Part shown: positions 2,790-18,997 of the stretch, piece after piece | Layout of the letters: the number at the start of each line of letters is the position of its first letter | Position numbering within the stretch: the stretch's first letter is position 1 | IMG/VR virus record: IMGVR_UViG_3300007542_000242 | Coordinates: 1-21,141 of that record | DNA: 21,141 bases | Strand: one strand, 5' to 3' | DNA from: a virus | Translations under genes and position numbers: made by a program | Notes under the pieces: model-generated | Told to the model about the DNA's origin: nothing | Database searches by the model: none | Seen by the model: the letters and a program-made list of their open reading frames with translations, nothing else

Positions 2790-2896
2790 TGCAGGTACCT
2801 ATCTGGAGCAAGGGTGTCTTTGTGTGGGTGGACCTCACCGAGGAACTGTTCTACAAGCTGTGGAGTAGAGAGAATGAGAGAGTACAGAGTGGGTGA
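2786..2896 (+). CDS. hypothetical micro-protein, 36 aa
   Basis: Begins M-M-Q-V-P-I-W-S-K-G-V-F-V-W-V and ends in a helix L-T-E-E-L-F-Y-K-L-W. The ATG overlaps the preceding stop in the ATGA fashion typical of this genome. The frame stays open upstream to a GTG at 2699 with a possible GAGGA site, which would give 65 aa, so the start is uncertain. Its 3' end overlaps the start of the next gene by 23 bases. Confidence 0.42.
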   Translation: MMQVPIWSKGVFVWVDLTEELFYKLWSRENERVQSG

Positions 2897-3050
2897 CTGC
2901 ATAGGTTACCATGGAAGCCACACTATCATAGAAGAGGTTGTAGACGACAGGCTGTACGGCTATTGGTTTGAGTGGAACCGTATTTATGGCGATCTTACAT
3001 GGACCGGAGCCTACGAAGTAGACAGCCACATCCCCAAAGAGTATTGCTGA
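2874..3050 (+). CDS. IPKEY-family micro-protein, 58 aa (member 1)
   Basis: First of nine micro-proteins that share a C-terminal I-P-K-E-Y-x. The N-terminus Y-R-V-G-D-C-I-G-Y matches V-Q-V-G-D-C-V in the 3094 member and V-E-G-D-C-F in the 11137 member. The body alternates hydrophobic residues (T-I-I-E-E-V-V ... Y-G-Y-W-F-E-W) like a small SH3-type or KOW-like barrel; the fold is inferred only. Here the motif is encoded CCC AAA GAG TAT TGC, a weak Shine-Dalgarno, yet the peptide is intact. A possible 18-codon frame starts on its stop (TGATG). Start ATG at 2874 lies inside the end of the preceding frame. Confidence 0.65.
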   Translation: MREYRVGDCIGYHGSHTIIEEVVDDRLYGYWFEWNRIYGDLTWTGAYEVDSHIPKEYC

Positions 3051-3106
3051 TGAACATCTTCTATCTGTGCTCTGCACGAAGGGAGACACCTGAATGGTAC
3101 AAGTAG
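3050..3106 (+). CDS. possible 18-aa coupling frame
   Basis: M-N-I-F-Y-L-C-S-A-R-R-E-T-P-E-W-Y-K. Its ATG overlaps the previous stop (TGATG), and its R-R-E codons hold AGGGAG, the ribosome-binding site for the 3094 start within it. It may carry ribosomes between two IPKEY genes rather than encode a working peptide. Confidence 0.25.
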   Translation: MNIFYLCSARRETPEWYK

Positions 3107-3276
3107 GAGACTGTGTTACAACTAGAACTGGTAACTACGGGGTAGTTCAAGAGCAACGGGTACCCGGAAGTTGGTGGGCCTTGTTCCTGAAAACGGCATG
3201 GGGAAGTCGGGACTTCGAAAGGCTGCACTTCAAACAGTCTAACGCAAAGGTAGTAATCCCTAAGGAGTATACATGA
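3094..3276 (+). CDS. IPKEY-family micro-protein, 60 aa (member 2)
   Basis: Begins M-V-Q-V-G-D-C-V-T-T-R-T-G-N-Y-G-V-V, close to member 1 and typical of a small barrel with a Gly-Asn turn. Ends V-V-I-P-K-E-Y-T. The last codons CCT AAG GAG TAT ACA TGA contain the ribosome-binding site TAAGGAG and overlap the next gene's ATG (ATGA). AAGGGAGA upstream supports the start. Function unknown; the two adjacent members look like an old tandem duplication that has diverged. Confidence 0.7.
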   Translation: MVQVGDCVTTRTGNYGVVQEQRVPGSWWALFLKTAWGSRDFERLHFKQSNAKVVIPKEYT

Positions 3277-4482: not shown

Positions 4483-4752
4483 ATGTGGGTAATCTGGGAA
4501 GACAGACAAGAACGGAGAGATAGACTAGCGGAGTACGGAAGAGCACCCGATGTCTTCGAACAAGATGGATGGTACTGTAACGATAAGTACTCTCGCAAAG
4601 TAGACCGTGGTGACATCAAGAATGCTAAGATATTTATGAACAAGAGGGCCTTAGCCCAAGGTCTTTCATGGGCATGTGGTGAACCCACTGTCTACGAAGT
4701 TGAAGTAACTGTAACCCCTATCAAGAAAACTACACTCGGAGAAATCAAATGA
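4483..4752 (+). CDS. hypothetical protein, 89 aa
   Basis: Unrecognised. Begins M-W-V-I-W-E-D-R-Q-E-R-R-D-R-L-A-E-Y; the middle is lysine-rich (D-I-K-N-A-K-I-F-M-N-K-R-A) and the end is a beta strand V-Y-E-V-E-V-T-V-T-P-I. AGAGGAAAGGA upstream supports the start. It overlaps the AAA+ ATPase gene by four bases (ATGA), so its product is made in step with that enzyme, but no link in function can be shown. Confidence 0.65.
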   Translation: MWVIWEDRQERRDRLAEYGRAPDVFEQDGWYCNDKYSRKVDRGDIKNAKIFMNKRALAQGLSWACGEPTVYEVEVTVTPIKKTTLGEIK

Positions 4753-6320
4753 CTAACTACATTCAAGAAGCAGGTCAACACTACTGGCCGAACATTGAAG
4801 AAGCAACCAAGACCAACATCCAGAAGATTCTTCACGTCTGTAAGCGGATGTTCAACGACAAAGAACCTTCCTTCTATAACGAGATGGAGAAGAAGTTCGA
4901 CAAGACTTTCTACAACATCCTCAAGGAACTCCCTGCTGGTACTGTGTTCGCACTAATCACCGGGGATATCCCTGTTGAAGAGTTCAAGACTTGGTTGTCC
5001 TCCAAGAACAAGGAGACTAACTTCAAGGACATCGGACCTGATCGCTACACTGACTCCGAGTGGCCGGTGAAAGTAGTCAAGGCAATGGAGACTCTGGCTG
5101 AGGCAAGCAAGGGTAACTACAAGGAGACTACCGAAGAGAGTGTAGCCTCTGGTGGTATATCTCAGGAAGCCTTTGATGAACTCAGGGCCAAGCTGGACCG
5201 AGAGTATCGAGAGAACAAGAACCTTTCGGACCAGAAGGATGCCCTTCAGAAACTCTTCGAAGAGACTGAGACTAACTACAAGGAGAAGCTTAAAGAGTTG
5301 TCATCCTCTAGGGTGAAAGAAGAACTTGAGGGGTTGACAATCGGAGAGGGAGACCTTACTTCTACTATCACCATGCGTCCTGCCAAGGAACTGTTCTTCG
5401 GTGTGACTGATAACAACATCGAGGTGCCTGTCTTTGAGTGGAAGGATGCCGAGGGTAACGTGGTTGCTCACCCGGATATCCCCAAGCAAGACCCCAAGTA
5501 TCTCTTCCGTGAGAAGGAGTTGACTCGTGTGCTCTATGCTCTGATGACTAACCAGAGGATGTACCTGCATGGCCACACTGGTACTGGTAAGACTACCCTC
5601 ATCGAACAGGTAGCAGCACACCTTAACTGGCCTGTACTGCGGATCAACTTCGACTCTGAGATCACTCGCATGGACTTGATTGGTAAGACTGATCTGGTTG
5701 CTGATGGTGGTACGACTACAACTCAGTGGCAGGATGGTCTGCTCCCCAAGGCAATGTCTAATGCTTACATCGCTATCTTTGACGAGATTGACTTCTGCCG
5801 TCCTGATGTTAGCTACGTAATGCAGGCAGCTACCGAAGGGAATGGTATGACTCTGCTTGAGGACGGTGGACGTAAGGTGTATCCGCACCAGATGTTCCGT
5901 ATGTTCGCTACTGGTAACACGGTAGGCCAAGGGGATGAGTTCGGTATGTACCAAGGTGCTCGTGCTCAGTCTCTTGCCTTCCTTGACCGCTTCACTATCT
6001 GGCAACGAGTGGACTATCTGCCTGCTGACAAGCGTAAGGAACTGGCTCAGAGTGCAGCACCTACCCTCAAGTCTGAGATCGTGGATCGTATCAGTAAGTA
6101 CGTCACTGAACACCTTGAAGCCTTCACTGGCAACAACGTACTCCAGCCTATCTCTCCTCGTGGTATGATGGCAGTGGCTAAGGCAGCAGAGTTCCTGTCT
6201 CTTAACGGTGCCTCAGATAAAGATGCACTGAGCGAGGCTCTGGATATGGTGGTGCTTGATCGTTGTACTCAAGAGGATCGTGCGGTACTCAAGGGGATTA
6301 AGGATCGGGTATGGAAATGA
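4749..6320 (+). CDS. MoxR/CobS-like AAA+ ATPase
   Basis: ATP-driven remodelling enzyme of the MoxR/CobS branch. Residues 1-130 are helical and unmatched; 139-190 is a charged coiled coil. The AAA+ core follows, with Walker A G-H-T-G-T-G-K-T (275-282), Walker B I-A-I-F-D-E-I-D-F (341-349) and a sensor-1 asparagine in A-T-G-N (about 390). The region after residue 395 gives the arginine-finger and lid part (L-D-R-F-T ... P-I-S-P-R-G). MoxR proteins usually act with a vWA partner to insert metals or remodel complexes, and the next gene is exactly such a partner, overlapping by ten bases. Phage members are often labelled cobalt chelatase CobS-like; the label describes the fold, not proven B12 synthesis. 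The long N-terminal extension is unlike ordinary MoxR. Confidence 0.9.
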   Translation: MTNYIQEAGQHYWPNIEEATKTNIQKILHVCKRMFNDKEPSFYNEMEKKFDKTFYNILKELPAGTVFALITGDIPVEEFKTWLSSKNKETNFKDIGPDRYTDSEWPVKVVKAMETLAEASKGNYKETTEESVASGGISQEAFDELRAKLDREYRENKNLSDQKDALQKLFEETETNYKEKLKELSSSRVKEELEGLTIGEGDLTSTITMRPAKELFFGVTDNNIEVPVFEWKDAEGNVVAHPDIPKQDPKYLFREKELTRVLYALMTNQRMYLHGHTGTGKTTLIEQVAAHLNWPVLRINFDSEITRMDLIGKTDLVADGGTTTTQWQDGLLPKAMSNAYIAIFDEIDFCRPDVSYVMQAATEGNGMTLLEDGGRKVYPHQMFRMFATGNTVGQGDEFGMYQGARAQSLAFLDRFTIWQRVDYLPADKRKELAQSAAPTLKSEIVDRISKYVTEHLEAFTGNNVLQPISPRGMMAVAKAAEFLSLNGASDKDALSEALDMVVLDRCTQEDRAVLKGIKDRVWK

Positions 6321-8119
6321 AAACACAAGAGTTCATTCACGAATCTATCGGAGTTACCGATGTCTTTGGCCGTAAGTCTGGAGTCAAGGTAGTCTTCGAA
6401 GGAGATCAGGCCCATACTGATGGAGAGACTATCATTATCCCATCTCTTCCTCAAGACAAGGTGATGAGTAAGCACTCAGTTGGTGTAGCCCGAGGGTATA
6501 TCGACCACGAGTCTGCCCATGTACGCTTCACTGATTGGGATGTATCCAAGAAGTTGTTCAAAGAGTGTGCGGAGCACAACCGTCCTTCACTCAAGGCAAT
6601 CACTAACTGCGTAGAGGATATGTTCATTGAGCGGGAGTACATGAAACTCTACCCCGGCTCGGAAAGAAACCTTAACACTCTCTGCACTGACATTAATGTA
6701 CGAGAGGTAGAACATATCAAGGCACTGCCTGAGGACCAGAGAACAGGAGTTAACCTTGGTACAGTAGCCTCAGGTATCCTTGCCCGTGGTCGTCGTGACT
6801 ACGTGGATACCTCAGAACTCTGGGACTGTGTACCTGATAACGTCAAGGCTCACGCAGAGAAGTGGCAAGAGCATATCGACAAGATAGAGTCTACCTCAGA
6901 TTCTATTCGTCTTGCCAAGTCTATCTACAAACTGCTGAGAGAGGACCCTAACCTTGAGTCTGATCCCGAGGACTTCAACCCTGAGGATGACGACCTCTCT
7001 GATGTAGCTGATGGTGATGGAGAGTTGTTGCCTAAGGGTATGAAGGAGGAGTACGGTGAGGCTGGTGAGGCTCTGGGGGAAGCACTCTCAGAGGATGGAG
7101 AGTCTGGTCCTGCTGAACTTGGTGAGGGTAGTGGTGCTAAGGGATTAGCTAACGGTAAGGGTGCCCTTGGTTACACTGTGTACACTACCAAGTATGATAC
7201 AGTACTCCATCGTCGTCTCCCCAAGCCTAGCGAAGAATCCCGTATGGACAATCCTCCCTTCTGGACTGGCACTCATGAAGGCTACGCCAAAGACAAGTCT
7301 CGTCTTCAGTCTCAGATCACAGTGATGAAGTCTAAACTCCAGAGAGTGATTGCGTCCAAGGAGATGAGAGACTGGGACTTTGGTAGAGAACAGGGCAGGT
7401 TGGACTCCAAGAGATTCTCTAGTGCCATGACTGGACAGAAGAATGTCTATAAGAGACGCACTGATCGTATTGAGATGGATACTGCTATCAGTATTCTTGT
7501 GGACTGTTCTGGTTCCATGTCTAGTGGAGGTAAGATCACTCTGGCTAAGCAAGTGGCTATTGTTCTTGGTGAATGCTTCGAAGGTACCGGAGTCAAGTAC
7601 GAGATCGTAGGGTTTACTAATCATTATGCTAACATGCGCGATACTATTAACAGACTAGTCTACAAGGGTGAGAAAGAAACCAAAGTCTATCATAGGATTG
7701 AACCACTTCAATTGATGATGTTCAAAGAGTTTAACGACAGGCTCCGAGATGCTCAACCATTCATCAACGCTATCGACATGGTAAGTATGGGTAACAACTC
7801 GGACAGAGATGCTATTCAGTTCGCTGCTAACAGATTGAGTAAACGTCCAGAGTCTAGGAAGATTCTATTCACTCTATCTGATGGTTCACCAGCCAACTCC
7901 TGTAGTAATTCTGTGGACAGTAAGGACCTTATTCGTGGAGCTAAAGAGGCGGTAGACGAAGCATCCAAAGAGATTGAGTGCGTTGGTATCGGTATTCAAG
8001 ATAGTTCAGTGAAGAGAATCTATCCTAACTATGCAGTGGTGAACAACCTCGAAGAACTCCAGAGTACCGTGATGAGAAAGCTGTCTGCTATTCTCACTGG
8101 TGGAAAGGTGAGACTATGA
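6311..8119 (+). CDS. CobT-like vWA protein with HExxH motif
   Basis: Partner of the AAA+ ATPase. Near the N-terminus is H-E-S-A-H (66-70), a perfect HExxH zinc-protease signature, followed by E-D-M-F-I-E-R-E (102-109) that could give the third ligand. Residues about 212-275 are strongly acidic and low-complexity, as in CobT. The vWA domain follows with MIDAS D-C-S-G-S (398-402) and later conserved acidic and threonine positions (D-R-D-A-I-Q; L-S-D-G-S). Putative metallopeptidase plus vWA architecture is known in proteins paired with MoxR ATPases. Start at 6311 is preferred because AAGGA is six bases upstream; an ATGA-overlapping ATG at 6317 is the alternative. Whether the HExxH is an active protease is unknown. 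Confidence 0.85.
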   Translation: MEMKTQEFIHESIGVTDVFGRKSGVKVVFEGDQAHTDGETIIIPSLPQDKVMSKHSVGVARGYIDHESAHVRFTDWDVSKKLFKECAEHNRPSLKAITNCVEDMFIEREYMKLYPGSERNLNTLCTDINVREVEHIKALPEDQRTGVNLGTVASGILARGRRDYVDTSELWDCVPDNVKAHAEKWQEHIDKIESTSDSIRLAKSIYKLLREDPNLESDPEDFNPEDDDLSDVADGDGELLPKGMKEEYGEAGEALGEALSEDGESGPAELGEGSGAKGLANGKGALGYTVYTTKYDTVLHRRLPKPSEESRMDNPPFWTGTHEGYAKDKSRLQSQITVMKSKLQRVIASKEMRDWDFGREQGRLDSKRFSSAMTGQKNVYKRRTDRIEMDTAISILVDCSGSMSSGGKITLAKQVAIVLGECFEGTGVKYEIVGFTNHYANMRDTINRLVYKGEKETKVYHRIEPLQLMMFKEFNDRLRDAQPFINAIDMVSMGNNSDRDAIQFAANRLSKRPESRKILFTLSDGSPANSCSNSVDSKDLIRGAKEAVDEASKEIECVGIGIQDSSVKRIYPNYAVVNNLEELQSTVMRKLSAILTGGKVRL

Positions 8120-8286
8120 GGTGTTCCTGCTGCGACACAGATGAAAGACTTAAGTACGACAAGGACACTAACAAGTTCTACTGTACCCACTGCTGGGGAG
8201 AGATCAAGGAGAACTATAAGCAGTTAAAGAACGGAGGGTTTACCTTCAGAGACTTGAACTATATCTTCTTCGGAGAGGAGCAATGA
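8116..8286 (+). CDS. zinc-ribbon micro-protein, 56 aa
   Basis: M-R-C-S-C-C near the start and F-Y-C-T-H-C-W about 20 residues later give two Cys-x-x-Cys-type knuckles, so the protein probably binds zinc. The rest is helical and ends F-F-G-E-E-Q. Its ATG overlaps the vWA stop, and its own stop overlaps the next ATG (ATGA on both sides). The E-E codons (GGA GAG GAG) form the next ribosome-binding site. It may bind DNA or RNA or act with the primase, which has its own zinc finger; no evidence decides this. Confidence 0.72.
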   Translation: MRCSCCDTDERLKYDKDTNKFYCTHCWGEIKENYKQLKNGGFTFRDLNYIFFGEEQ

Positions 8287-8471
8287 ACCTTTGGCAATAC
8301 ATGCGTATAGGAATCTATCTTCTGTATCCTAATAAGGAACAAAGTAGTCTTACGTATTCTCTTTCTGCAGCGAATCCAGATTTTATGAAATTAGTATCAG
8401 ATAAAGATAAATTCCCTAGAAGATTAACTAATTCAGATTTCAAGTTAATAGTACCTGAGGAGTACATGTAA
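8283..8471 (+). CDS. IPKEY-family micro-protein, variant IVPEEYM, 62 aa (member 3)
   Basis: Divergent member ending L-I-V-P-E-E-Y-M. The motif is encoded GTA CCT GAG GAG TAC ATG TAA, which still supplies GAGGAG for the primase-helicase start at 8471 (TAATG overlap). The codons are noticeably richer in A/T than in both neighbours (many TTA, AAT, GAT, AGT), suggesting recent arrival. The body is aromatic and serine-rich, without the V-G-D-C start of other members. It sits exactly between the zinc-ribbon gene and the replicative primase-helicase. Confidence 0.6.
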   Translation: MNLWQYMRIGIYLLYPNKEQSSLTYSLSAANPDFMKLVSDKDKFPRRLTNSDFKLIVPEEYM

Positions 8472-9946
8472 TGGAGACACACCAAGACTGCCCCCACTGT
8501 GGACATAAGGAATGCTACACCGTATTCCCTGACGGTGGTTACTACTGCCATTCGTGTGGAGCAAAGAGCGGAGGAAAGCCATTGGAAATTGAAGAGAGAA
8601 ACTTTGAAACCATTCGTGGTATCGACAAGAAAGTCTGTGAGTTCTATGGTACTACTGTAGACTATGACTCTCTTGGTAATGCAGTACGACACACCTACCC
8701 CTACCCCCATGCTGAGAAATACCGCTACCTTCCTAAGGACTTCTCAAAGAACAAGGGGTTCACAACAGATCATCTCTTCGGGCAGGACAAGTTCAACCCC
8801 GGCTGTGCCAAGTATATCACTATCGTAGAGGGTGAGCTTGATGCTATGTCTGCCTATCAGATTCTCGGTAAGAGGTGGCCGGTAGTCTCTCTGCCTTCGG
8901 CTAGTATCAGCAGGAAGTTGTTGCAGAATGTACACGAATACTTGAACTCCTTCGAGAGTATCGTTATCTGTACTGATGGTGACGATGCAGGGAAGAAGGC
9001 CAGTGATACACTCTGTGAAGCATTCCCCGGTAAGGTATGGAGAGTCAAGCTAGAGAAGCACAAGGATGCTAATGCTTTCCTTCAGGCTGGTGACGAGGAG
9101 AGTTTCAAATGGTCATGGGTAAACAGAGAACGGTATGTTCCTTCTAACGTTTACAACAACAAGTCTGACTTTGATTCTATCCTTGACGACGACGAGACTA
9201 ACACCTTCATCCCTACTCCTATCACTGACTTCAACAAGCTGTGTAAGGGGCTGATGCAAGGCCACCTCACTGTGATTACAGGACCGGAGGGGCAGGGTAA
9301 GACAGAGGTGATGCGTCTCTTCGAAGCAGACATCCTTATGAACCATGACATCCCTATCGCAGTGCTGCATATGGAGGAGAGTAAGAAGACTTGCCTGTTG
9401 TCTTTGGCTTCCTACGTACTGGGTATCAACCTTCGGGACCCCGAGCATGGTGTGCCTCAGGAGGATATCAAGGCAGCGATAGACAAGCTGAACGCCAAGA
9501 AGAACCTGTTCCTCTTCGAGCTTGGTATTGACGAGGACCCACTCAGTATCATGGACAAGGTGCGTATGCTTACTTCTGTCTACGGCTGTAGGTACATCTT
9601 CATCGACCCTATCCAACAGCTTAGCTACGGCAAGGATAAGGACTCTACGGAGGAACAGGTGCTCACCAAGATCAGTGTACAATTGGAACGTATCGCCACT
9701 GAGTTCAATGTGGGTATTGTCTGTACTACTCACGTCAATGACGATGGACAAACTCGGAGCAGTCGTATGATTGGTAAGTCTGCCAGTGTGCGTATTGATC
9801 TTCAGCGAGACCATATGAATCCTGACCCTGACATTCGTAACCAGACCAAGCTGATGGTGTCAAAGAACAGACCTATCGGCCCTACTGGGTTTGCTGGTGT
9901 GTTGGAGTTTGACCCCGGCAGCTTCACTCTTAAGGAGATGGTATGA
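8471..9946 (+). CDS. T7 gp4-type DNA primase-helicase
   Basis: Makes primers and unwinds DNA at the phage fork. The N-terminal zinc finger has C7, C10, C26 and C29. The TOPRIM part has V-E-G-E-L-D-A (E120) and T-D-G-D-D-A-G (169-174). The RecA-like helicase domain, from about 245, has Walker A G-P-E-G-Q-G-K-T (271-278) and Walker B Y-I-F-I-D-P-I-Q-Q (375-383), followed by a T-T-H-V switch-type region. At 491 aa it is shorter than T7 gp4 (566), mainly between finger and TOPRIM, so primase activity is likely but not certain. The C-terminus L-K-E-M-V is encoded over TTAAGGAG, which starts the next gene. It partners the T7-like polymerase and SSB downstream. Confidence 0.93.
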   Translation: METHQDCPHCGHKECYTVFPDGGYYCHSCGAKSGGKPLEIEERNFETIRGIDKKVCEFYGTTVDYDSLGNAVRHTYPYPHAEKYRYLPKDFSKNKGFTTDHLFGQDKFNPGCAKYITIVEGELDAMSAYQILGKRWPVVSLPSASISRKLLQNVHEYLNSFESIVICTDGDDAGKKASDTLCEAFPGKVWRVKLEKHKDANAFLQAGDEESFKWSWVNRERYVPSNVYNNKSDFDSILDDDETNTFIPTPITDFNKLCKGLMQGHLTVITGPEGQGKTEVMRLFEADILMNHDIPIAVLHMEESKKTCLLSLASYVLGINLRDPEHGVPQEDIKAAIDKLNAKKNLFLFELGIDEDPLSIMDKVRMLTSVYGCRYIFIDPIQQLSYGKDKDSTEEQVLTKISVQLERIATEFNVGIVCTTHVNDDGQTRSSRMIGKSASVRIDLQRDHMNPDPDIRNQTKLMVSKNRPIGPTGFAGVLEFDPGSFTLKEMV

Positions 9947-10116
9947 GGTACAATCTTTTAATTACTCTCCGACCTACGGACTATGGGTATGGATGGGAGA
10001 TAAGGCCCGGAGTCTCGTACCCCTTAGGCCATCATAAATTCCCTACCGTATGCTGTTCTGGAACCACCAGAGACCCAGATAAGTACAACAAGAAGATACC
10101 TAAGGAGTACACCTGA
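9943..10116 (+). CDS. IPKEY-family micro-protein, 57 aa (member 4)
   Basis: M-R-Y-N-L-L-I-T-L-R-P start, a Y-G-Y-G-W-E-I strand, a Cys-Cys pair, and end N-K-K-I-P-K-E-Y-T. Starts on the stop of the primase-helicase using the TTAAGGAG at that gene's end. Its own CCT AAG GAG TAC ACC TGA supplies the site for the next member, whose ATG overlaps the stop (TGATG). It forms a two-gene array with the 10116 member between helicase and polymerase. Function unknown. Confidence 0.68.
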   Translation: MRYNLLITLRPTDYGYGWEIRPGVSYPLGHHKFPTVCCSGTTRDPDKYNKKIPKEYT

Positions 10117-10298
10117 TGCAAGCAGGAGAAGTCTGGAAGAATAAGTATTCACCAACCACTCTGGTATTAGGGCGAAGTACTAGGTTTTATTTCTATAACG
10201 GGGATGGGAATGCTCTCTTCGGTAGGTATGCCTGCTGTACTGTTAGTCTTAATAATCCTAGCGAGTGGAAAAAGATTATTCCAAAGGAGTACGCATGA
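10116..10298 (+). CDS. IPKEY-family micro-protein, 60 aa (member 5)
   Basis: Begins M-Q-A-G-E-V-W and continues with beta strands (T-L-V-L-G-R; R-F-Y-F-Y-N-G-D-G), ending K-K-I-I-P-K-E-Y-A. The 3' end CCA AAG GAG TAC GCA TGA overlaps the polymerase exonuclease-half ATG and provides its ribosome-binding site. Barrel-like alternation resembles the other members, but outside the C-terminus identity to them is low, which implies old divergence or convergence on the terminal motif. Confidence 0.68.
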   Translation: MQAGEVWKNKYSPTTLVLGRSTRFYFYNGDGNALFGRYACCTVSLNNPSEWKKIIPKEYA

Positions 10299-11158
10299 AG
10301 TTATTCGTATCAGACATCGAGACTGACGGGTTCGATCCTAGTGTGATCCATTGCTTCTTCGGTAAGGTGGTGGATACGGATACTTGGAAGGTAGAGGGAA
10401 CTGAAAGATGGGTAGACTTAAATAGTTTCGATACCCCAGACGTACCAGCAGTAACTCCAGTATTCCATAACGGATTGAACTTCGATGTCCCGGTACTTAA
10501 CAAGTTCTATCACGGACTTATTGATCCCCACAAAGTAGTGGATACCTTCGTGTCCTCTCGTCTTATTAACTATAGTAAGTTCCGTACTCATGGTCTAGAG
10601 GAACTTGGACGCTATCTCAAGATGCCTAAGGGTACATTCAATGGGCCTTGGGATAAGCGTACCAAGGAGATGGAAGACTATTGCTGGCAGGATGTAGACG
10701 TAACCATTGAAGTATTGAAACACTACTGGCCTCAGATCAGTGACCCCTCTTGGAAGAAAGCTCTCAGAGTAGAGCATGAGATGGCTATCATCTGTAAGGA
10801 CATGCAGGACAATGGGTTCTACTTCAACGACGAGAAGGCTCTGGATATTCTCCACGATGTACAAACAGAGCAGGCTACTCTTGAGGCTTCATTCAAGAAG
10901 GAGTTTCCACCCCACAGAGTAGAGACTAAGAGGATCAAGTACCGTACCAAGAAGGATGGCTCTCTGTTCTCTGGTGTATCCAAAGCACTAACAGAATACC
11001 CTGACCACGAGAGGGACGGAGAAGACTTGGTGTGCTACACTAAGCAAGAGTTTAATCCCGGTTCACCAAGAGATCGTATTGACGCCCTGTGGGATGCCGG
11101 GTGGAATCCATACCTCAAAACGAAAGGACACAAGAAATGGTTAAGAGAGTCCCGGTAG
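10295..11158 (+). CDS. split family A DNA polymerase, exonuclease half
   Basis: Carries the 3'-5' proofreading domain: Exo I V-S-D-I-E-T-D-G (D7, E9), Exo II H-N-G-L-N-F-D (D64) and Exo III Y-C-W-Q-D-V-D-V-T (D133). The start of the polymerase module follows, up to F-N-P-G-S-P-R-D-R-I and G-W-N-P-Y-L-K-T-K-G-H-K-K. In T7 polymerase the same F-N-P-S-S-R-D-H-I region runs straight on towards the palm; here the frame stops after W-L-R-E-S-R, and two micro-genes intervene before the polymerase half. By alignment from memory the break falls near T7 residue 360, in the thumb. The first micro-gene begins inside the last 22 bases. The two halves would have to assemble to make a normal enzyme. Start at 10295 is fixed by ATGA overlap and AAAGGAG. 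Confidence 0.9.
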   Translation: MKLFVSDIETDGFDPSVIHCFFGKVVDTDTWKVEGTERWVDLNSFDTPDVPAVTPVFHNGLNFDVPVLNKFYHGLIDPHKVVDTFVSSRLINYSKFRTHGLEELGRYLKMPKGTFNGPWDKRTKEMEDYCWQDVDVTIEVLKHYWPQISDPSWKKALRVEHEMAIICKDMQDNGFYFNDEKALDILHDVQTEQATLEASFKKEFPPHRVETKRIKYRTKKDGSLFSGVSKALTEYPDHERDGEDLVCYTKQEFNPGSPRDRIDALWDAGWNPYLKTKGHKKWLRESR

Positions 11159-11307
11159 AGGGTGACTGCTTCATTAGTAAGTCTGGTGAACTAAAATGGA
11201 TTTGCCTTAAGGACTCTAAGAAACAATACAACTTCAACACAGGAAGAGCGGTCAACTCCCATGTGGTCACTGCATTCGAAATCCTAATCCCTAAGGAGTA
11301 TACCTAA
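11137..11307 (+). CDS. IPKEY-family micro-protein inside split polymerase, 56 aa (member 6)
   Basis: M-V-K-R-V-P-V-E-G-D-C-F-I-S-K-S-G start resembles members 1 and 2 (V-G-D-C); end E-I-L-I-P-K-E-Y-T. It begins out of frame within the last codons of the polymerase exonuclease half, where polymerase codons for K-G (AAA GGA) act as its ribosome-binding site. Its CCT AAG GAG TAT ACC TAA serves the next member (TAATG overlap). An in-frame ATG at 11089 would extend it further into the polymerase and is less well supported. Confidence 0.68.
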   Translation: MVKRVPVEGDCFISKSGELKWICLKDSKKQYNFNTGRAVNSHVVTAFEILIPKEYT

Positions 11308-11522
11308 TGGCCTACAATGGAGTATGTGTCACTGAGTATAGTGCTGGGAGTGGAGATTATGTAGATGATTGCTGCCTTGTCCACGACTCTATGGTAGTGT
11401 TTACCTTTCGAAGAGATACAGGGTGCGATTACATGGTATTACCTCGTAGACCTTTCAGAGTAGATGACCCAGATGACGGTGTCAGATCAGTTGAAGTAGT
11501 AATCCCTAAGGAGTACACATGA
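11307..11522 (+). CDS. IPKEY-family micro-protein inside split polymerase, 71 aa (member 7)
   Basis: Longest member. M-A-Y-N-G-V-C-V-T-E-Y start, a D-D-C-C pair, M-V-V-F-T-F-R-R strand, and end V-E-V-V-I-P-K-E-Y-T. The terminal CCT AAG GAG TAC ACA TGA overlaps the ATG of the polymerase half and is its only evident ribosome-binding site, so this micro-gene is needed for the second half of the enzyme to be made. Function of the peptide itself unknown. Confidence 0.7.
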   Translation: MAYNGVCVTEYSAGSGDYVDDCCLVHDSMVVFTFRRDTGCDYMVLPRRPFRVDDPDDGVRSVEVVIPKEYT

Positions 11523-12541
11523 TAGAAGACAAGGAAGAACATTACAAAAGGTACGGATGGGAGGTCAACGAGGAGAACCTGTCCACTCTACCAGCTACAG
11601 CACCACAGGCAGCAAGGGATTTGACCAAGTGGTTAACTCTTGAGGGTAGACGTAAGCAACTGGAGGATTGGTTAGCTAACCTGAACAGAGACACCAACTC
11701 TATTCACGGTAAGTTCTGGCCTATCGGTGCTTGGACGCATCGGATGGCACACACCAGCCCTAATGCCGCCAACATTGTGTCTGTCTTTAGTGGTACACCA
11801 GAGACACCAGTAGAAGAAGTAAAGGAAAAATACGATGGAGAGATGCGGTCCTGTTGGGAGGCTGATCCGGGTGCATGGCTTGTGGGTACTGACGCTGATG
11901 GTATTCAGTTGCGTATCCTTTGTCACTACACCAAGTCTGCTGTACTCAGGGACGCTATTGTATCCGGTGATAAGTCAGTGGGTACAGACATCCACTCAAT
12001 GAATCAGAAGGCTCTTGGTCCTATCTGTAAGACCAGAGACGACGCCAAGACATTCATCTACGCTTGGCTCCTAGGTGCTGGTATCCCCAAGATAGCTAGT
12101 ATTCTCAAGTGCACCATGCCTCAGGCTAAGGAAGCAGTGGATAACTTCCTGTCTGCTTATCCAGAGTTGAAGAGGTTGAAGAACGTCACCATTCCTAGAG
12201 ATGCAGCAAGAGGATACTTCATCGGTCTTGATGGACGTAAAGTACAGTGTGACTCTGAACACCTGATGCTGGCTGGATACCTACAGAATGGTGAGGCTGT
12301 GGTGATGAAGCACGCTAACGTACTCTGGAGGAAAGCACTAGATGAATTCTTTTATCAGTACAAGCAGGCAAACTTCGTACACGACGAATGGCAAACGGTA
12401 GTCTTTGGAGGACGAGACAATGCAGAACAAGTCGGGTTGATACAGAGACAAGCTATCATAGACACAGGACATGACCTGAGCCTGTTCTGCCCATTGGATG
12501 GTAGCTATAGCGTAGGTAGAAATTGGCGCGAAACCCATTAG
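11519..12541 (+). CDS. split family A DNA polymerase, polymerase half
   Basis: Contains the whole catalytic palm and fingers: motif A G-T-D-A-D-G-I-Q-L-R (catalytic D125), motif B R-D-D-A-K-T-F-I-Y-A-W-L-L-G-A-G (R173, K177, Y181, equivalent to T7 R518, K522, Y526) and motif C V-H-D-E-W near the C-terminus. The first 25 residues (H-Y-K-R-Y-G-W-E-V-N-E-E-N-L-S-T-L-P) continue the region interrupted in the upstream half. Translation starts on the stop of the second embedded micro-gene. 287 + 340 residues gives 627, somewhat below T7 polymerase (704), consistent with lack of the thioredoxin-binding insert. All catalytic residues are present, so the split gene looks functional rather than decayed. 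Confidence 0.92.
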   Translation: MIEDKEEHYKRYGWEVNEENLSTLPATAPQAARDLTKWLTLEGRRKQLEDWLANLNRDTNSIHGKFWPIGAWTHRMAHTSPNAANIVSVFSGTPETPVEEVKEKYDGEMRSCWEADPGAWLVGTDADGIQLRILCHYTKSAVLRDAIVSGDKSVGTDIHSMNQKALGPICKTRDDAKTFIYAWLLGAGIPKIASILKCTMPQAKEAVDNFLSAYPELKRLKNVTIPRDAARGYFIGLDGRKVQCDSEHLMLAGYLQNGEAVVMKHANVLWRKALDEFFYQYKQANFVHDEWQTVVFGGRDNAEQVGLIQRQAIIDTGHDLSLFCPLDGSYSVGRNWRETH

Positions 12542-12556
12542 AAAGGAGACACACTA

Positions 12557-12739
12557 ATGCAAGAGACTAGACAGGTTAACACTAGGTACGTAGGTATTGG
12601 TTGGCTAAGTAAAAAGGCTAGGGAACTCAGGCTGCCCAAGGAGAAGGTAGAATCTATCAGACATCCTGATGCACGTTACGTAGGAAAGGGATGGTATGAG
12701 TACACCTACGAGACAGACATCCCGTGGGAATACCGATGA
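12557..12739 (+). CDS. IPKEY-family micro-protein, variant IPWEYR, 60 aa (member 8)
   Basis: Ends E-T-D-I-P-W-E-Y-R, a variant of the family motif encoded CCG TGG GAA TAC CGA TGA, with the embedded ribosome-binding site largely lost. It has an internal repeat R-Y-V-G-I-G-W (about 10-16) and R-Y-V-G-K-G-W (about 41-47). A strong GAAAGGAG precedes the start, 15 bases after the polymerase stop. The next member's ATG overlaps its stop (ATGA). Motif placement and context support family membership; the body differs from the others. Confidence 0.6.
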   Translation: MQETRQVNTRYVGIGWLSKKARELRLPKEKVESIRHPDARYVGKGWYEYTYETDIPWEYR

Positions 12740-12906
12740 AGAGCGGGGTGTTGTCCGATCATGGATTAGGTATTTACTCTCTTATCTACAAGAGTGCCGA
12801 TACCGTTTACTACTTCCCTACAGGGTCATCTCTCGAAACTAAATTCAGTTCGGTAGAGAGACTGGGCGAAGGCTACAAAGAAGTGATCCCGAAGGAATAT
12901 TGTTAG
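12736..12906 (+). CDS. IPKEY-family micro-protein, 56 aa (member 9)
   Basis: M-K-S-G-V-L-S-D-H-G-L-G-I-Y-S-L-I-Y-K start, then D-T-V-Y-Y-F-P-T-G strand, and end K-E-V-I-P-K-E-Y-C. The motif is encoded CCG AAG GAA TAT TGT TAG: the Shine-Dalgarno is weakened, and the next gene has its own AAAGGA after a gap, so the peptide motif persists where it is not needed for translation. The start overlaps the preceding stop. Confidence 0.65.
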   Translation: MKSGVLSDHGLGIYSLIYKSADTVYYFPTGSSLETKFSSVERLGEGYKEVIPKEYC

Positions 12907-12913
12907 AAAGGAC

Positions 12914-12942
12914 TTGACATCATGCTCGATACGTGTTATAAC
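12914..12942 (+). promoter_or_regulatory. candidate sigma-70 promoter upstream of ssb
   Basis: TTGACA (12914-12919), a 17-base spacer and TATAAC (12937-12942) make a near-consensus bacterial promoter in one of the few spots without a tight gene overlap. A second TATACT follows at once. It overlaps the first codons of a small frame (12922), and would drive the ssb and nuclease genes. Seen by consensus only. Confidence 0.5.
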
Positions 12943-13065
12943 TATACTATAAGGGAAGGAGAAGAAGACTACTACGTACTAGTAGATGACTATGAACTTA
13001 AGGAATACCATAGTGATTGGTATTATTCTTTCAAAGAAGAGGAGAACTCTAAGTATGGCTACTGA
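12922..13065 (+). CDS. hypothetical acidic tyrosine-rich micro-protein, 47 aa
   Basis: Very acidic and rich in tyrosine (G-E-E-D-Y-Y-V-L-V-D-D-Y-E-L-K-E-Y), a composition seen in DNA-mimic or inhibitor peptides, though that is speculation. AAAGGA lies about eleven bases upstream. Its E-E-E codons (GAA GAG GAG) form the ribosome-binding site of the ssb gene, whose ATG overlaps its last 11 bases. Its first codons overlap the candidate promoter, so it may not be made from that promoter's transcript. Confidence 0.5.
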   Translation: MLDTCYNYTIREGEEDYYVLVDDYELKEYHSDWYYSFKEEENSKYGY

Positions 13066-13519
13066 ATTTGTGAAGCTCAAGGGTACCGCCAAGTGGGCAC
13101 GAGTCTTTGAGGACAACCGAGACCTCTACGGTTTCGAAGGTGCTGCCAAGGAATACGGTGGGCAGTATGTTATTGATGTCTACGCTGACAAGGAGAATCT
13201 GGATAAGCTCAAGGCTTCCGGTTCTCGTATCCGTCCCAAGCTTGACACTGATGGGAAGATGTTTGTCAAGTTCAAGCGTAAGCACGAAGGTCCTTTCGAG
13301 GCTGCCAGTGGTGCACCTAAGGTAACCAACAAGGCAGGGGATGTATGGTCCTTTGAGGATGATGGACCTATCGGTAACGGCTCTGAGGTAGAGGTAGACC
13401 TTGTCGTCTATGACACCAGAATGGGTAAAGGTACTCGTCTTGAGGGGGTGAAGGTGTTGAGCCTTGTGGAGTACAAGGAGACTTCTGGTCCTCGTGAGAA
13501 AGAAGAGGAGTTGTTTTGA
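13055..13519 (+). CDS. gp2.5-like single-stranded DNA-binding protein
   Basis: 154 aa beta-rich protein starting M-A-T-E-F-V-K-L-K-G-T-A-K-W-A-R-V and ending in an acidic tail with terminal aromatic (E-K-E-E-E-L-F), the layout of T7 gp2.5, whose acidic tail and last phenylalanine contact polymerase and helicase. The middle K-R-K-H-E-G-P-F-E and V-D-L-V-V-Y-D-T strands fit an OB fold. An in-frame upstream ATG (12986) would add 23 unlikely residues; GAGGAG before 13055 fixes the start. Genes for its likely partners (polymerase, helicase) lie just upstream. The final codons hold GAGGAG for the TTG start of the nuclease. Confidence 0.82.
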   Translation: MATEFVKLKGTAKWARVFEDNRDLYGFEGAAKEYGGQYVIDVYADKENLDKLKASGSRIRPKLDTDGKMFVKFKRKHEGPFEAASGAPKVTNKAGDVWSFEDDGPIGNGSEVEVDLVVYDTRMGKGTRLEGVKVLSLVEYKETSGPREKEEELF

Positions 13520-16567: not shown

Positions 16568-18329
16568 CTACGGACCTACTCTTCCAATCTCGGAAGAAAT
16601 CCACTCCATGAAGTACCGCCTCAAGGGGGAGACATTCAAGGAGGCTATGTCCCGAGTGGCTCAGTCTCTCTCGGATGGTAACGAACACTTCGAGAAGTTC
16701 AGGGACATTCTCTACAACCAGAGATTCCTTCCTGCTGGGCGTATTCAGTCTGCTATGGGTAGTCCTCGTGTGGTTACACCGTACAATTGTTTTGTCTCGG
16801 GGACTATTAATGATTCCATGGACGACATCATGGACAAGGCTAAAGAAGCAGCGGAGACAATGAGACTCGGAGGTGGTATCGGTTATGACTTCTCTACTCT
16901 ACGGCCTAGGGGTGCTAATATCCGCAGTCTTGATTCACGATCTAGCGGTCCGGTATCTTTCATGGGAATCTACGACGCTCTCTGCAAAACTATTTCGTCT
17001 GCTGGCCATCGTCGTGGTGCTCAGATGGGCGTACTTAGAGTGGACCATCCAGACATCGAAGAGTTTATCACTGCAAAGAACAACTCCAGTAAGCTCACAG
17101 ACTTCAACATCTCAGTAGGTATCACTGACAAGTTCATGGAAGCAGTGAAAGAGGATAAGCCCTTCGATCTTGTCTTCGATGGCCGAGTGTACAAGACAGT
17201 GAATGCTCGTAACCTGTGGGATTCTATTCTCCGTAGTACATGGGACTGGGCTGAGCCGGGAGTTCTCTTCATCGACAGGATGAACTACAAGAACAACCTC
17301 TGGTACTGTGAGACTATCGCAGCAACCAACCCCTGCGGTGAACAACCTCTGCCTCCCTATGGTGCTTGTCTTCTCGGCAGCTTCAACTTGGTGAAGTACA
17401 TCAAGGACGGAGTAATCAAAAGCCACAGCTACTACGGAGAGGACACTTACGGTAAGGTCTTCGACTACGAGATGTTCAAGAATGACATCCCCTTCGTAGT
17501 CAGGGCTATGGACAACGTGATCGATAGAGCAGTATACCCACTCAGAGAACAGGCTCAGGAGGCACTGGACAAGAGGCGTATGGGCCTAGGTGTTACTGGT
17601 CTGGCTAATGCTATCGAGGCTCTGGGATACCCGTATGGTTCTCCTGAGTTCCTTACCCAGATGCAGACAATCATGGGAGTCTTGAGGGATACAGCTTACA
17701 CTGCTTCTATCTCTCTGGCTATCGAGAAGGGGCCGTTCCCTAAGTTCGATCCCGCTATCACTCACTCTGGATTCTACCGTACCCTGCCGTACAGTATTGT
17801 GGAGAACGTAAAGAAGTATGGAATTCGTAACAGCCATCTCCTCTCTATTGCTCCTACTGGTACTATCAGTCTTACTGCGGACAACGTATCGTCGGGTATC
17901 GAACCAGTCTTCTCGCACTGGTATGACCGTACCATTCAAACATTCGACGGAGCAAGAATTGAAAGAGTGGAGGACTTCGGCTATCGTGAATTCGGCATTA
18001 AGGGCAGGACAGCAGACCAAGTCAGAGTAGAGGATCATGTCAAGGTACTCAACATGGCCTCTCAATACGTTGACTCTGCCTGCTCCAAGACCTGTAACGT
18101 GGGTGATGATGTCACTTGGGAAGAGTTCAAGGATGTCTACATGCAAGCCTATGACGGTGGGGCCAGTGGGTGTACTACCTTCAGGGCTTCTGGTAAACGG
18201 TACGGTATTCTTAATGCTTCAAAGGACGAGGAGATTGTAGAAGTGGAGACTAAAGAAGAAGACAACTTTATCGAAGAAGGTGGGGCTTGTTACTTCGACC
18301 CTGCCACTGGTTTGAGGACTTGCGAATGA
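16560..18329 (+). CDS. nrdJ: class II (B12-dependent) ribonucleotide reductase
   Basis: Converts ribonucleotides to deoxyribonucleotides using adenosylcobalamin. 589 aa. Catalytic set: C77 in N-C-F-V-S-G, N-P-C-G-E-Q-P-L (C259, E261) and partner C270 in G-A-C-L-L-G-S-F-N-L; shuttle cysteines near the C-terminus (C577, C588). No separate small-subunit gene follows and there is no ATP-cone domain, both usual for monomeric class II phage enzymes. Start is taken as TTG at 16560, seven bases after AAGGAG and giving M-S-N-Y-G-P-T-L-P-I-S-E-E-I-H; a more upstream TTG (16506) adds 18 unlikely residues. The host or its surroundings must supply B12. Stop overlaps the protease ATG. Confidence 0.9.
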   Translation: MSNYGPTLPISEEIHSMKYRLKGETFKEAMSRVAQSLSDGNEHFEKFRDILYNQRFLPAGRIQSAMGSPRVVTPYNCFVSGTINDSMDDIMDKAKEAAETMRLGGGIGYDFSTLRPRGANIRSLDSRSSGPVSFMGIYDALCKTISSAGHRRGAQMGVLRVDHPDIEEFITAKNNSSKLTDFNISVGITDKFMEAVKEDKPFDLVFDGRVYKTVNARNLWDSILRSTWDWAEPGVLFIDRMNYKNNLWYCETIAATNPCGEQPLPPYGACLLGSFNLVKYIKDGVIKSHSYYGEDTYGKVFDYEMFKNDIPFVVRAMDNVIDRAVYPLREQAQEALDKRRMGLGVTGLANAIEALGYPYGSPEFLTQMQTIMGVLRDTAYTASISLAIEKGPFPKFDPAITHSGFYRTLPYSIVENVKKYGIRNSHLLSIAPTGTISLTADNVSSGIEPVFSHWYDRTIQTFDGARIERVEDFGYREFGIKGRTADQVRVEDHVKVLNMASQYVDSACSKTCNVGDDVTWEEFKDVYMQAYDGGASGCTTFRASGKRYGILNASKDEEIVEVETKEEDNFIEEGGACYFDPATGLRTCE

Positions 18330-18997
18330 GATACCTTCTAGTAATTCTAATGCTACTGGCTACTCCTCTGAGGGCTGACATCCTTGAGGACATCCTCTAC
18401 CCCACTGTGTCTGTCGAGGTAGCTGGAGGTTCTGGTAGTGGTACATCAGTAGCTATTGATCCTATCCTCGGTACTTACATCATCACCAACTACCATGTTG
18501 CTTCTATGGGGGAGGACCTTAGGGTCTTCTTCCATGGAGACAGCAAAGGATACCCTGCCTACATGGTGGCCCACAACGTAGCTTACGATATGGCTATCCT
18601 AGTGACCAGACACAAGGCAGACCACGTGGCTAAGCTTGGCAAGTCCTCTGATGTCTCTCTGTTCAAGGACACTATCTGTATCGGTAACTCCTTCGGTAAT
18701 GGTATCGTGCCATCCAAGGGTATCATCTCTGGTGTTGATGTAGAGATCGGAGGGTATATTAATCTGTTCTACAAGATGGACTGCAAGATCGTACCGGGTA
18801 ACTCTGGTGGTGGTATGTACGTAAAGGTAGGCAACCACTGGGTCTACATCGGTATGCCCTCCAAGGGTATGGTAATCAGGGGACAGTTCTTTGAGCACCT
18901 GTCTGTAGCAGTACGAGTTAAGGACATCAAGGAGTTCCTTGCCTATCACCATGTAATCCCAATCACGGAGGCGTATGACCTTGGAAGACCGTATTGA
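18326..18997 (+). CDS. exported trypsin-like serine protease
   Basis: 223 aa. Residues 1-18 look like a signal peptide (M-R-Y-L-L-V-I-L-M-L-L-A-T-P-L-R-A). The catalytic triad is visible: H57 in T-N-Y-H-V-A-S, D88 in A-Y-D-M-A-I-L and S160 in V-P-G-N-S-G-G-G-M. It resembles the protease domain of DegP/HtrA-type enzymes, but has no PDZ domain. A secreted protease inside a replication/nucleotide operon is unexpected; it might act on envelope proteins during infection or on phage-modified host periplasmic targets. ATGA overlap with nrdJ means it is translated together with the reductase. Substrate unknown. Confidence 0.85.
   Translation: MRYLLVILMLLATPLRADILEDILYPTVSVEVAGGSGSGTSVAIDPILGTYIITNYHVASMGEDLRVFFHGDSKGYPAYMVAHNVAYDMAILVTRHKADHVAKLGKSSDVSLFKDTICIGNSFGNGIVPSKGIISGVDVEIGGYINLFYKMDCKIVPGNSGGGMYVKVGNHWVYIGMPSKGMVIRGQFFEHLSVAVRVKDIKEFLAYHHVIPITEAYDLGRPY

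Follow-up and report, generated by a model that had tools for sequence, protein, structure and literature searches.

Nine small genes in the virus record IMGVR_UViG_3300007542_000242 of IMG/VR (the window, 21,141 bases, analysed at its full length) encode proteins that end in nearly the same short peptide, and they belong to an undescribed family of phage microproteins. The C-terminal peptide, here called the tag, is common to the microproteins of one genome and differs between genomes. It is selected as protein, and the genes that carry it (microgenes) are tied to the replication region of the phages. The microproteins are best described as one family in very fast evolution, in which the tag is the only well-kept part.

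Each of the nine genes of the window, 56-71 codons in length, ends in [IV]P-x-E-Y-x-stop. A search of all six frames of the window for [IVL]P.EY.-stop retrieved nine instances, compared with a mean of 0.01 and a maximum of 1 in 200 runs of a third-order Markov model; in 2.54 Mb of other loci the pattern occurred once. A motif-free test, in which every small gene in the window was compared at its C-terminus, revealed 34 similar pairs, with 0.9 expected from internal segments. The initial annotation had listed nine endings of the I-P-K-E-Y type, and all are present at the positions given. The range it assigned to them, 8283-12906, is too narrow because the array begins 5' of the CobS-like gene, so that two of the nine genes fall outside. 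A V-G-D-C-type start is found in three (2874, 3094 and, as EGDC, 11137) and is lacking in the other six. The microgenes are the following:

2874..3050, + strand: microgene 1, 58 aa, tag IPKEYC (codons ATC CCC AAA GAG TAT TGC)
3094..3276, + strand: microgene 2, 60 aa, tag IPKEYT; ATGA forms the overlap of stop and next start
8283..8471, + strand: microgene 3, 62 aa, tag VPEEYM; immediately 5' of the primase-helicase gene
9943..10116, + strand: microgene 4, 57 aa, tag IPKEYT
10116..10298, + strand: microgene 5, 60 aa, tag IPKEYA; immediately 5' of the exonuclease half of the polymerase
11137..11307, + strand: microgene 6, 56 aa, tag IPKEYT; between both polymerase halves
11307..11522, + strand: microgene 7, 71 aa, tag IPKEYT; between the polymerase halves, overlapping the start of the polymerase half
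12557..12739, + strand: microgene 8, 60 aa, tag IPWEYR
12736..12906, + strand: microgene 9, 56 aa, tag IPKEYC; uncoupled

Genes were called with a simple script, not with a trained gene finder; the script skipped microgene 3, the codon usage of which is atypical.

A scan with the polymerase half yielded 80 loci, and none of these 80 polymerase relatives contained an exact IPKEY ending. This empty search led to the finding of genome-specific tags, as the nearest relatives possess like small genes at like junctions with different endings. Further scans brought the set to twelve related genomes, of which the twelfth (L271) was found with a scan that used a CobT alignment; scans with single CobT proteins found nothing. 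The twelve genomes are those of marine-type phages (Zobellviridae/Cobavirinae), with a split DNA polymerase and CobS/CobT-like genes, and carry 3-16 microgenes each, about 109 in total. The test set consisted of 95 microgenes from eleven genomes, to which L271 adds 14. Polymerase phylogeny and gene content place the window in the Cobavirinae; its polymerase half is 62% identical to that of PQ867845.1 (L089), a complete genome of this subfamily and the same clade, in which the microgenes are annotated as hypothetical proteins. The tags of the individual genomes are:

Window: IPKEY
L271: LP[KE]EY[MLA]x
L089: [IVL]PxEF[FL]
L081 and L084: LPxEF[FL]E
L182: VPxEML
L086: PMEFLI
L085: IPKEL and IPRGLL
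L087: PKEFxF
L083: GPxE[LIV]xxW
L082 and L088 (two sister genomes): GPxCLVxW

In most genomes the tag has the form hydrophobic-P-x-E-hydrophobic, from which the sister genomes L082 and L088 depart. The family for which IPKEY was initially regarded as the terminal motif is real, but IPKEY is only this phage's version; since the relatives carry other tags, a search restricted to IPKEY would have led to the wrongful dismissal of a true family. The motif-free test gave similar C-terminal pairs in excess of expectation in L084 (40 vs 0.7), L083 (31 vs 1.1), L182 (16 vs 0.3), L031 (14 vs 0.4) and L003 (13 vs 0.6) and was weaker in L085, L086, L087 and L088 (4-6 pairs vs 0.2-0.5). Among the 95 proteins, which were picked by their tag, the tag score was 20.6 within and 8.5 between genomes, and this was reached in none of 2000 label permutations; the bodies, taken as the 20 residues preceding the tag, scored 7.0 within and 6.5 between genomes. 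Common within and different between genomes, the endings behave as a docking tag should. They are confined to the microproteins: no ordinary protein bears the tag in eight genomes checked, and the sole apparent exception, L084 6508-6762, proved to be a missed microgene with a short extension.

Two other kinds of C-terminus were noticed in the relatives. One is a tag-like [IV]P.EW, which in many of them closes the product (about 135 aa) of a conserved core gene (L182 14158-14568, L096 9449-9859 and others). In L175 and L177, which have an unsplit polymerase, two adjacent small proteins (7279-7810 in both) have the C-terminal stretch LKG[VI]ARFF[KR][EDG]K or a similar one in common, possibly a second, unrelated pair.

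The microgenes are coupled to the next gene. Most overlap its start, and the AAG GAG that encodes K-E doubles as its Shine-Dalgarno (SD) sequence; of the 73 tags of PxE type, 51 are followed at a distance of 2-13 nt by the start codon of an open reading frame (ORF) of at least 30 codons, that is, immediately at gene starts, as a translation-signal repeat would. The tag might then be a by-product of the ribosome-binding site, an AAGGAG at fixed spacing being read as K-E and the microgenes serving as spacers for translational coupling. Codon usage agrees with such a constraint: the E of the tag is encoded by GAG in 45/51 coupled and 10/22 uncoupled genes (p=2e-4), the x residue is mostly K, E or G if the gene is coupled and free if it is not, and in 85/105 coupled ordinary genes an E is found within the last seven residues. 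Yet P-x-E-hydrophobic occurs in only 2 of these 105 ordinary genes, against 35/45 microgenes; both sets come from the same genomes and share the type of overlap. All four P codons are in use, I, Y and F also vary among synonyms, and the SD sequence does not extend to the hydrophobic flanks. Uncoupled genes keep the tag with relaxed codons, and several copies of the L082 tag CLVxW have no SD sequence. In the window, microgene 1 retains the motif though the next gene has no detectable coupled start codon, and the stop codon of microgene 9 is followed by a separate SD sequence for the next gene, its ending still being IPKEYC. The tag codons of the window, the x codon excluded, differ at synonymous sites with a proportion (pS) of 0.93 and at nonsynonymous sites with a proportion (pN) of 0.02, of which pN is pushed down by the motif-based choice of the set and the saturation of pS is unaffected. 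The tags are thus not conserved as nucleotide sequence, and from the synonymous saturation it follows that the copies are not homogenised as DNA. Codon saturation, the 2/105 ordinary genes and the uncoupled tagged genes led to the rejection of the SD constraint as the sole cause of the tag. As such it is largely refuted, and we give it very little credence; it remains as an added constraint. Concerning the caveat raised at the outset, that the motif might match chance under this constraint, the KE codons are explained by it where genes are coupled, but I, P and Y are not.

The microgenes might also encode regulatory leader peptides, in which the conserved C-terminus would stall the ribosome over the start of the next gene. 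A conserved C-terminus, a variable body and a location directly 5' of core genes are what such peptides display. The tags differ strongly among phages, however, and ribosomes do not; moreover, several tagged genes have no coupled gene after them, and the bodies retain protein-like common features. Leader peptides are the least credible of the explanations considered.

The bodies of the microproteins, which are 40-87 aa long and mostly 55-80 aa, have undergone near-complete turnover. Between the sister genomes L082 and L088 the polymerase halves are 83%, the primases 87% and the SSB-like proteins 76% identical; the bodies are at background similarity and unalignable, with tags identical in kind. 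BLAST among the bodies gave a best pair of E 8e-4. A faint common signal persists. An N-terminal G[LIVMA][YW] occurs in 24/95 microproteins, compared with 4/147 other small genes and 26/1979 in a further count. Profiles constructed by leaving out one genome at a time scored tag-less bodies above other small genes (area under the curve, AUC, 0.78, p 9e-14), and the bodies also outscored shuffled versions of themselves (AUC 0.66, p 4e-7). The bodies, initially described as otherwise very different, are practically unalignable and retain weak common features. Scans of 9-21 members per library against Pfam, PHROG, NCBIfam and PADLOC brought up no match that was consistent or significant, tblastn with two members against 50,697 phage records returned only the own record or noise, and no described family with such tags was found in the open-access literature. 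The assertion that no family with this terminal motif has been described is borne out, no credible match existing in the four libraries.

AlphaFold models of the window protein 3094, with eight paralogues, and of L084 4269, with fifteen relatives, each show five strands and, where the tag lies, a helical turn, at predicted local distance difference test (pLDDT) values of 52 and 62.5, respectively. Foldseek against the PDB found no fold match (best E 3.0). These models and the Foldseek search were also the basis for a comparison with small beta-barrel (SH3-like/KOW) proteins, whose fold is a five-strand barrel. The bodies are probably a small beta-rich domain. The small-barrel-like body proposed initially is plausible to that extent; a common fold is unsupported, as both models are of low confidence and the PDB offers no match.

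These data bear on the main rival of docking, according to which the tag is the last strand and turn of a common small fold of lineage-expanded paralogues that have no common partner and whose bodies diverged so rapidly that nothing but this element can still be recognised. The weak body signal, the common N-terminal G-hydrophobic-Y/W and the strands and tag-associated turn that both low-confidence models contain point in this direction, as do two junctions of L089 that are 84% alike over 67 nt, which suggests tandem duplication. A tag of purely structural nature would be expected to drift together with the body that carries it, yet the tags of one genome agree while similarity among bodies is barely higher inside a genome than across genomes. 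The synonymous sites of the tag are saturated, and there are few recent-looking duplicates. On balance, we consider a purely structural role unlikely, albeit a serious contender.

The location of the microgenes is defined by the following genes of the window:

4749..6320, + strand: CobS-like AAA+ ATPase (phrog_249, 5.8e-54)
6311..8119, + strand: CobT-like VWA protein (phrog_1576 and phrog_17276)
8116..8286, + strand: small CxxC..CxxC (zinc-ribbon-like) protein, untagged, found again beside microgenes in relatives
8471..9946, + strand: primase-helicase (phrog_239, 4.4e-105)
10295..11158, + strand: DNA polymerase, 3'-5' exonuclease half (phrog_17, 4.3e-41)
11519..12541, + strand: DNA polymerase, polymerase half (phrog_17, 4e-57)
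13055..13519, + strand: SSB-like gene, so named by position and acidic C-terminus, without a PHROG match; 3' limit of the microgene region

The replication region thus combines CobS-like AAA+ and CobT-like VWA genes with a primase-helicase, and its T7-type DNA polymerase is split in two. Alignments show that the split point is conserved in relatives, and the D-x-S-G-S-M motif of the CobT-like protein is invariant in ten of them. The microgene region starts just 5' of the CobS-like gene and ends at the SSB-like gene. As initially noted, the microgenes flank the replication genes, at nearly every junction of primase-helicase, exonuclease and polymerase; in relatives they also lie between CobS and CobT. 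Of the 92 microgenes counted in ten genomes, 78 are located between CobS and the SSB-like gene and 14 lie further upstream; downstream there is none, and the segment to which they are confined stops at the SSB-like gene. Core-gene order varies: one arrangement is Zn, primase, exonuclease and polymerase half, another is exonuclease, primase, Zn and polymerase half, and L087 has a third. Under every order arrays of 1-4 microgenes occupy most junctions.

In L089, L083, L081 and the window, the junctions, consisting of tag, start and first codons, recur as repeats 33-67 nt in length and are a possible substrate for cassette exchange. Microgenes might accordingly be selfish or modular cassettes, with recombination at near-identical junctions (tag, SD sequence and start codon) inserting, deleting and swapping bodies between the core genes. 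The full body turnover between L082 and L088, the arrays at most junctions and the rearranged core order are in keeping with this possibility. Synonymous saturation of most tags speaks against frequent exchange at the tag, amino-acid conservation is left unexplained, and the microgenes are not regularly accompanied by a nuclease or recombinase. As an explanation in its own right it is improbable; cassette recombination may be the mode by which arrays change, alongside either docking or a structural role.

Tags that agree within a genome without homogenisation of the DNA, on bodies that look unrelated, are expected if there is a common partner, and docking is for this reason rated the likeliest explanation, with a chance somewhat below even. 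According to this model, the microproteins are a rapidly diversifying family with a co-evolving C-terminal docking tag that is read by one phage-encoded partner. The partner would be a component of the replisome or a CobS/CobT-like protein, and the tag would change in concert with it. The bodies would diversify, for example as host-takeover or counter-defence modules on the replication machinery. A doubtful variant regards the tag as a phage "barcode", a private C-terminal peptide per genome on about a dozen hypervariable microproteins with one phage machine, the replisome or an AAA+/VWA complex, as its reader; bodies would be freely exchanged for new host targets without loss of attachment, and barcode and reader would co-evolve.

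Several points weigh against docking. The partner is a postulate. Lineage-specific duplication with very fast divergence of the bodies could yield common tags without any partner. The structure models are poor, and their pLDDT is too low for claims about the fold. Because the 95-protein set was picked by tag, pN and the scores within and between genomes are partly circular, a bias of which the motif-free tests are free. All evidence is from one clade and mostly metagenomic: the eleven micro-bearing genomes in the tree form a single clade, and the polymerase half of L271, which was found after the tree, is 61% identical to that of the window. CobS/CobT genes occur in 16/16 micro-bearing loci of at least 15 kb and in 0/21 others, and the split polymerase is always present in micro-bearing loci; in a single clade, however, such co-occurrence counts as one event. 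CobT-bearing phages outside the clade (ICP2, CRP-810, nickie and about 70 IMG/VR loci) have no tags; in Veravirus ICBM2 and CRP-5, whose polymerase is split, the region seen contains no tags and no CobS/CobT-like genes; and common tags were likewise absent from the split-polymerase loci L090-L103. Neither feature is therefore sufficient, and co-occurrence does not allow the partner to be named. The split polymerase is ruled out as cause or companion by the other split-polymerase phages without tags, and CobS/CobT as a general companion by the single clade and the tag-less CobT-bearing phages outside it. In one tag-less relative, L102, the gap between the polymerase halves (6908-7012) holds an apparent HNH-type fragment, hinting that the polymerase split may have originated from a homing endonuclease.

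Phage genomes abound in tiny genes of unknown function, orphans that standard homology searches leave unrelated; here such genes become recognisable as one family via their tail peptide. Database searches do not use the property concerned, a tail common within a genome and different between genomes, which offers a handle on "dark" phage genes and, through the binder of the tag, a way to the partner. Within-genome C-terminal similarity of small genes is a simple scan applicable to any phage collection. Should docking be true, rapidly changing effectors would be attached to the phage replication machinery in a modular way.

Further features of the window deserve mention. Upstream of the SSB-like gene, 12922-13065 is a small untagged gene of about 45 aa with the pattern ...DxYxSxKEE..., which, in contrast to the microgenes, is recognisable in most relatives. 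A tRNA-Arg (anticodon tct) lies at 2376-2451, a few hundred bases 5' of the first microgene. Positions 18326-18997 encode a putative trypsin-type serine protease with a signal peptide, judged by the motifs ITNYHVA and PGNSGGG; it adjoins phage nucleotide-metabolism genes, which is unusual. The first 600 nt or so (1-600) contain no clear gene and fold far more strongly than shuffles (z -5.6); no Rfam family matched, even at E 1, and the segment is a candidate structured non-coding RNA. A 44-nt direct repeat, 98% identical, at 1137-1180 and 1689-1732, with the hairpin CACCTAGGGGAAACTCTAGGTG inside, lies 5' of small genes.

Among known systems, the start-associated sequences (SAS) and extended SAS (ESAS) of cluster K mycobacteriophages are found in many copies per genome at the starts of small genes, where they overlap the translation signal; each subcluster has its own ESAS consensus, and the SAS is conserved as DNA (GGGATAGGAGCCC), 5' of the starts (PMC3203893). 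The microgene tags resemble them in being multi-copy at gene starts, over the translation signal, with a consensus that varies by lineage, and differ in being conserved as amino acids, synonymously saturated and inside the preceding gene. The OM43 phages MEP401/402 (Zobellviridae) have a split polymerase with, as reported, a small unknown ORF between the halves (PMC10580990). Exonuclease and polymerase halves are separate genes in MEP401/402, Veravirus ICBM2 and CRP-5, as in the window; in the latter two, unlike in the window, the halves overlap directly, without an insert. Encapsulin cargo-loading peptides and the T4 capsid-targeting sequence, the latter N-terminal and cleaved, are short terminal peptides that sit on proteins without other resemblance and fit a single partner in the same genome. 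The microgenes differ from both in that they sit among replication genes, without a known shell or protease partner. The C-terminal tail of SSB is likewise a short hydrophobic peptide, used for docking in DNA replication. There, one protein serves many partners; in the microgenes, many proteins bear one peptide.

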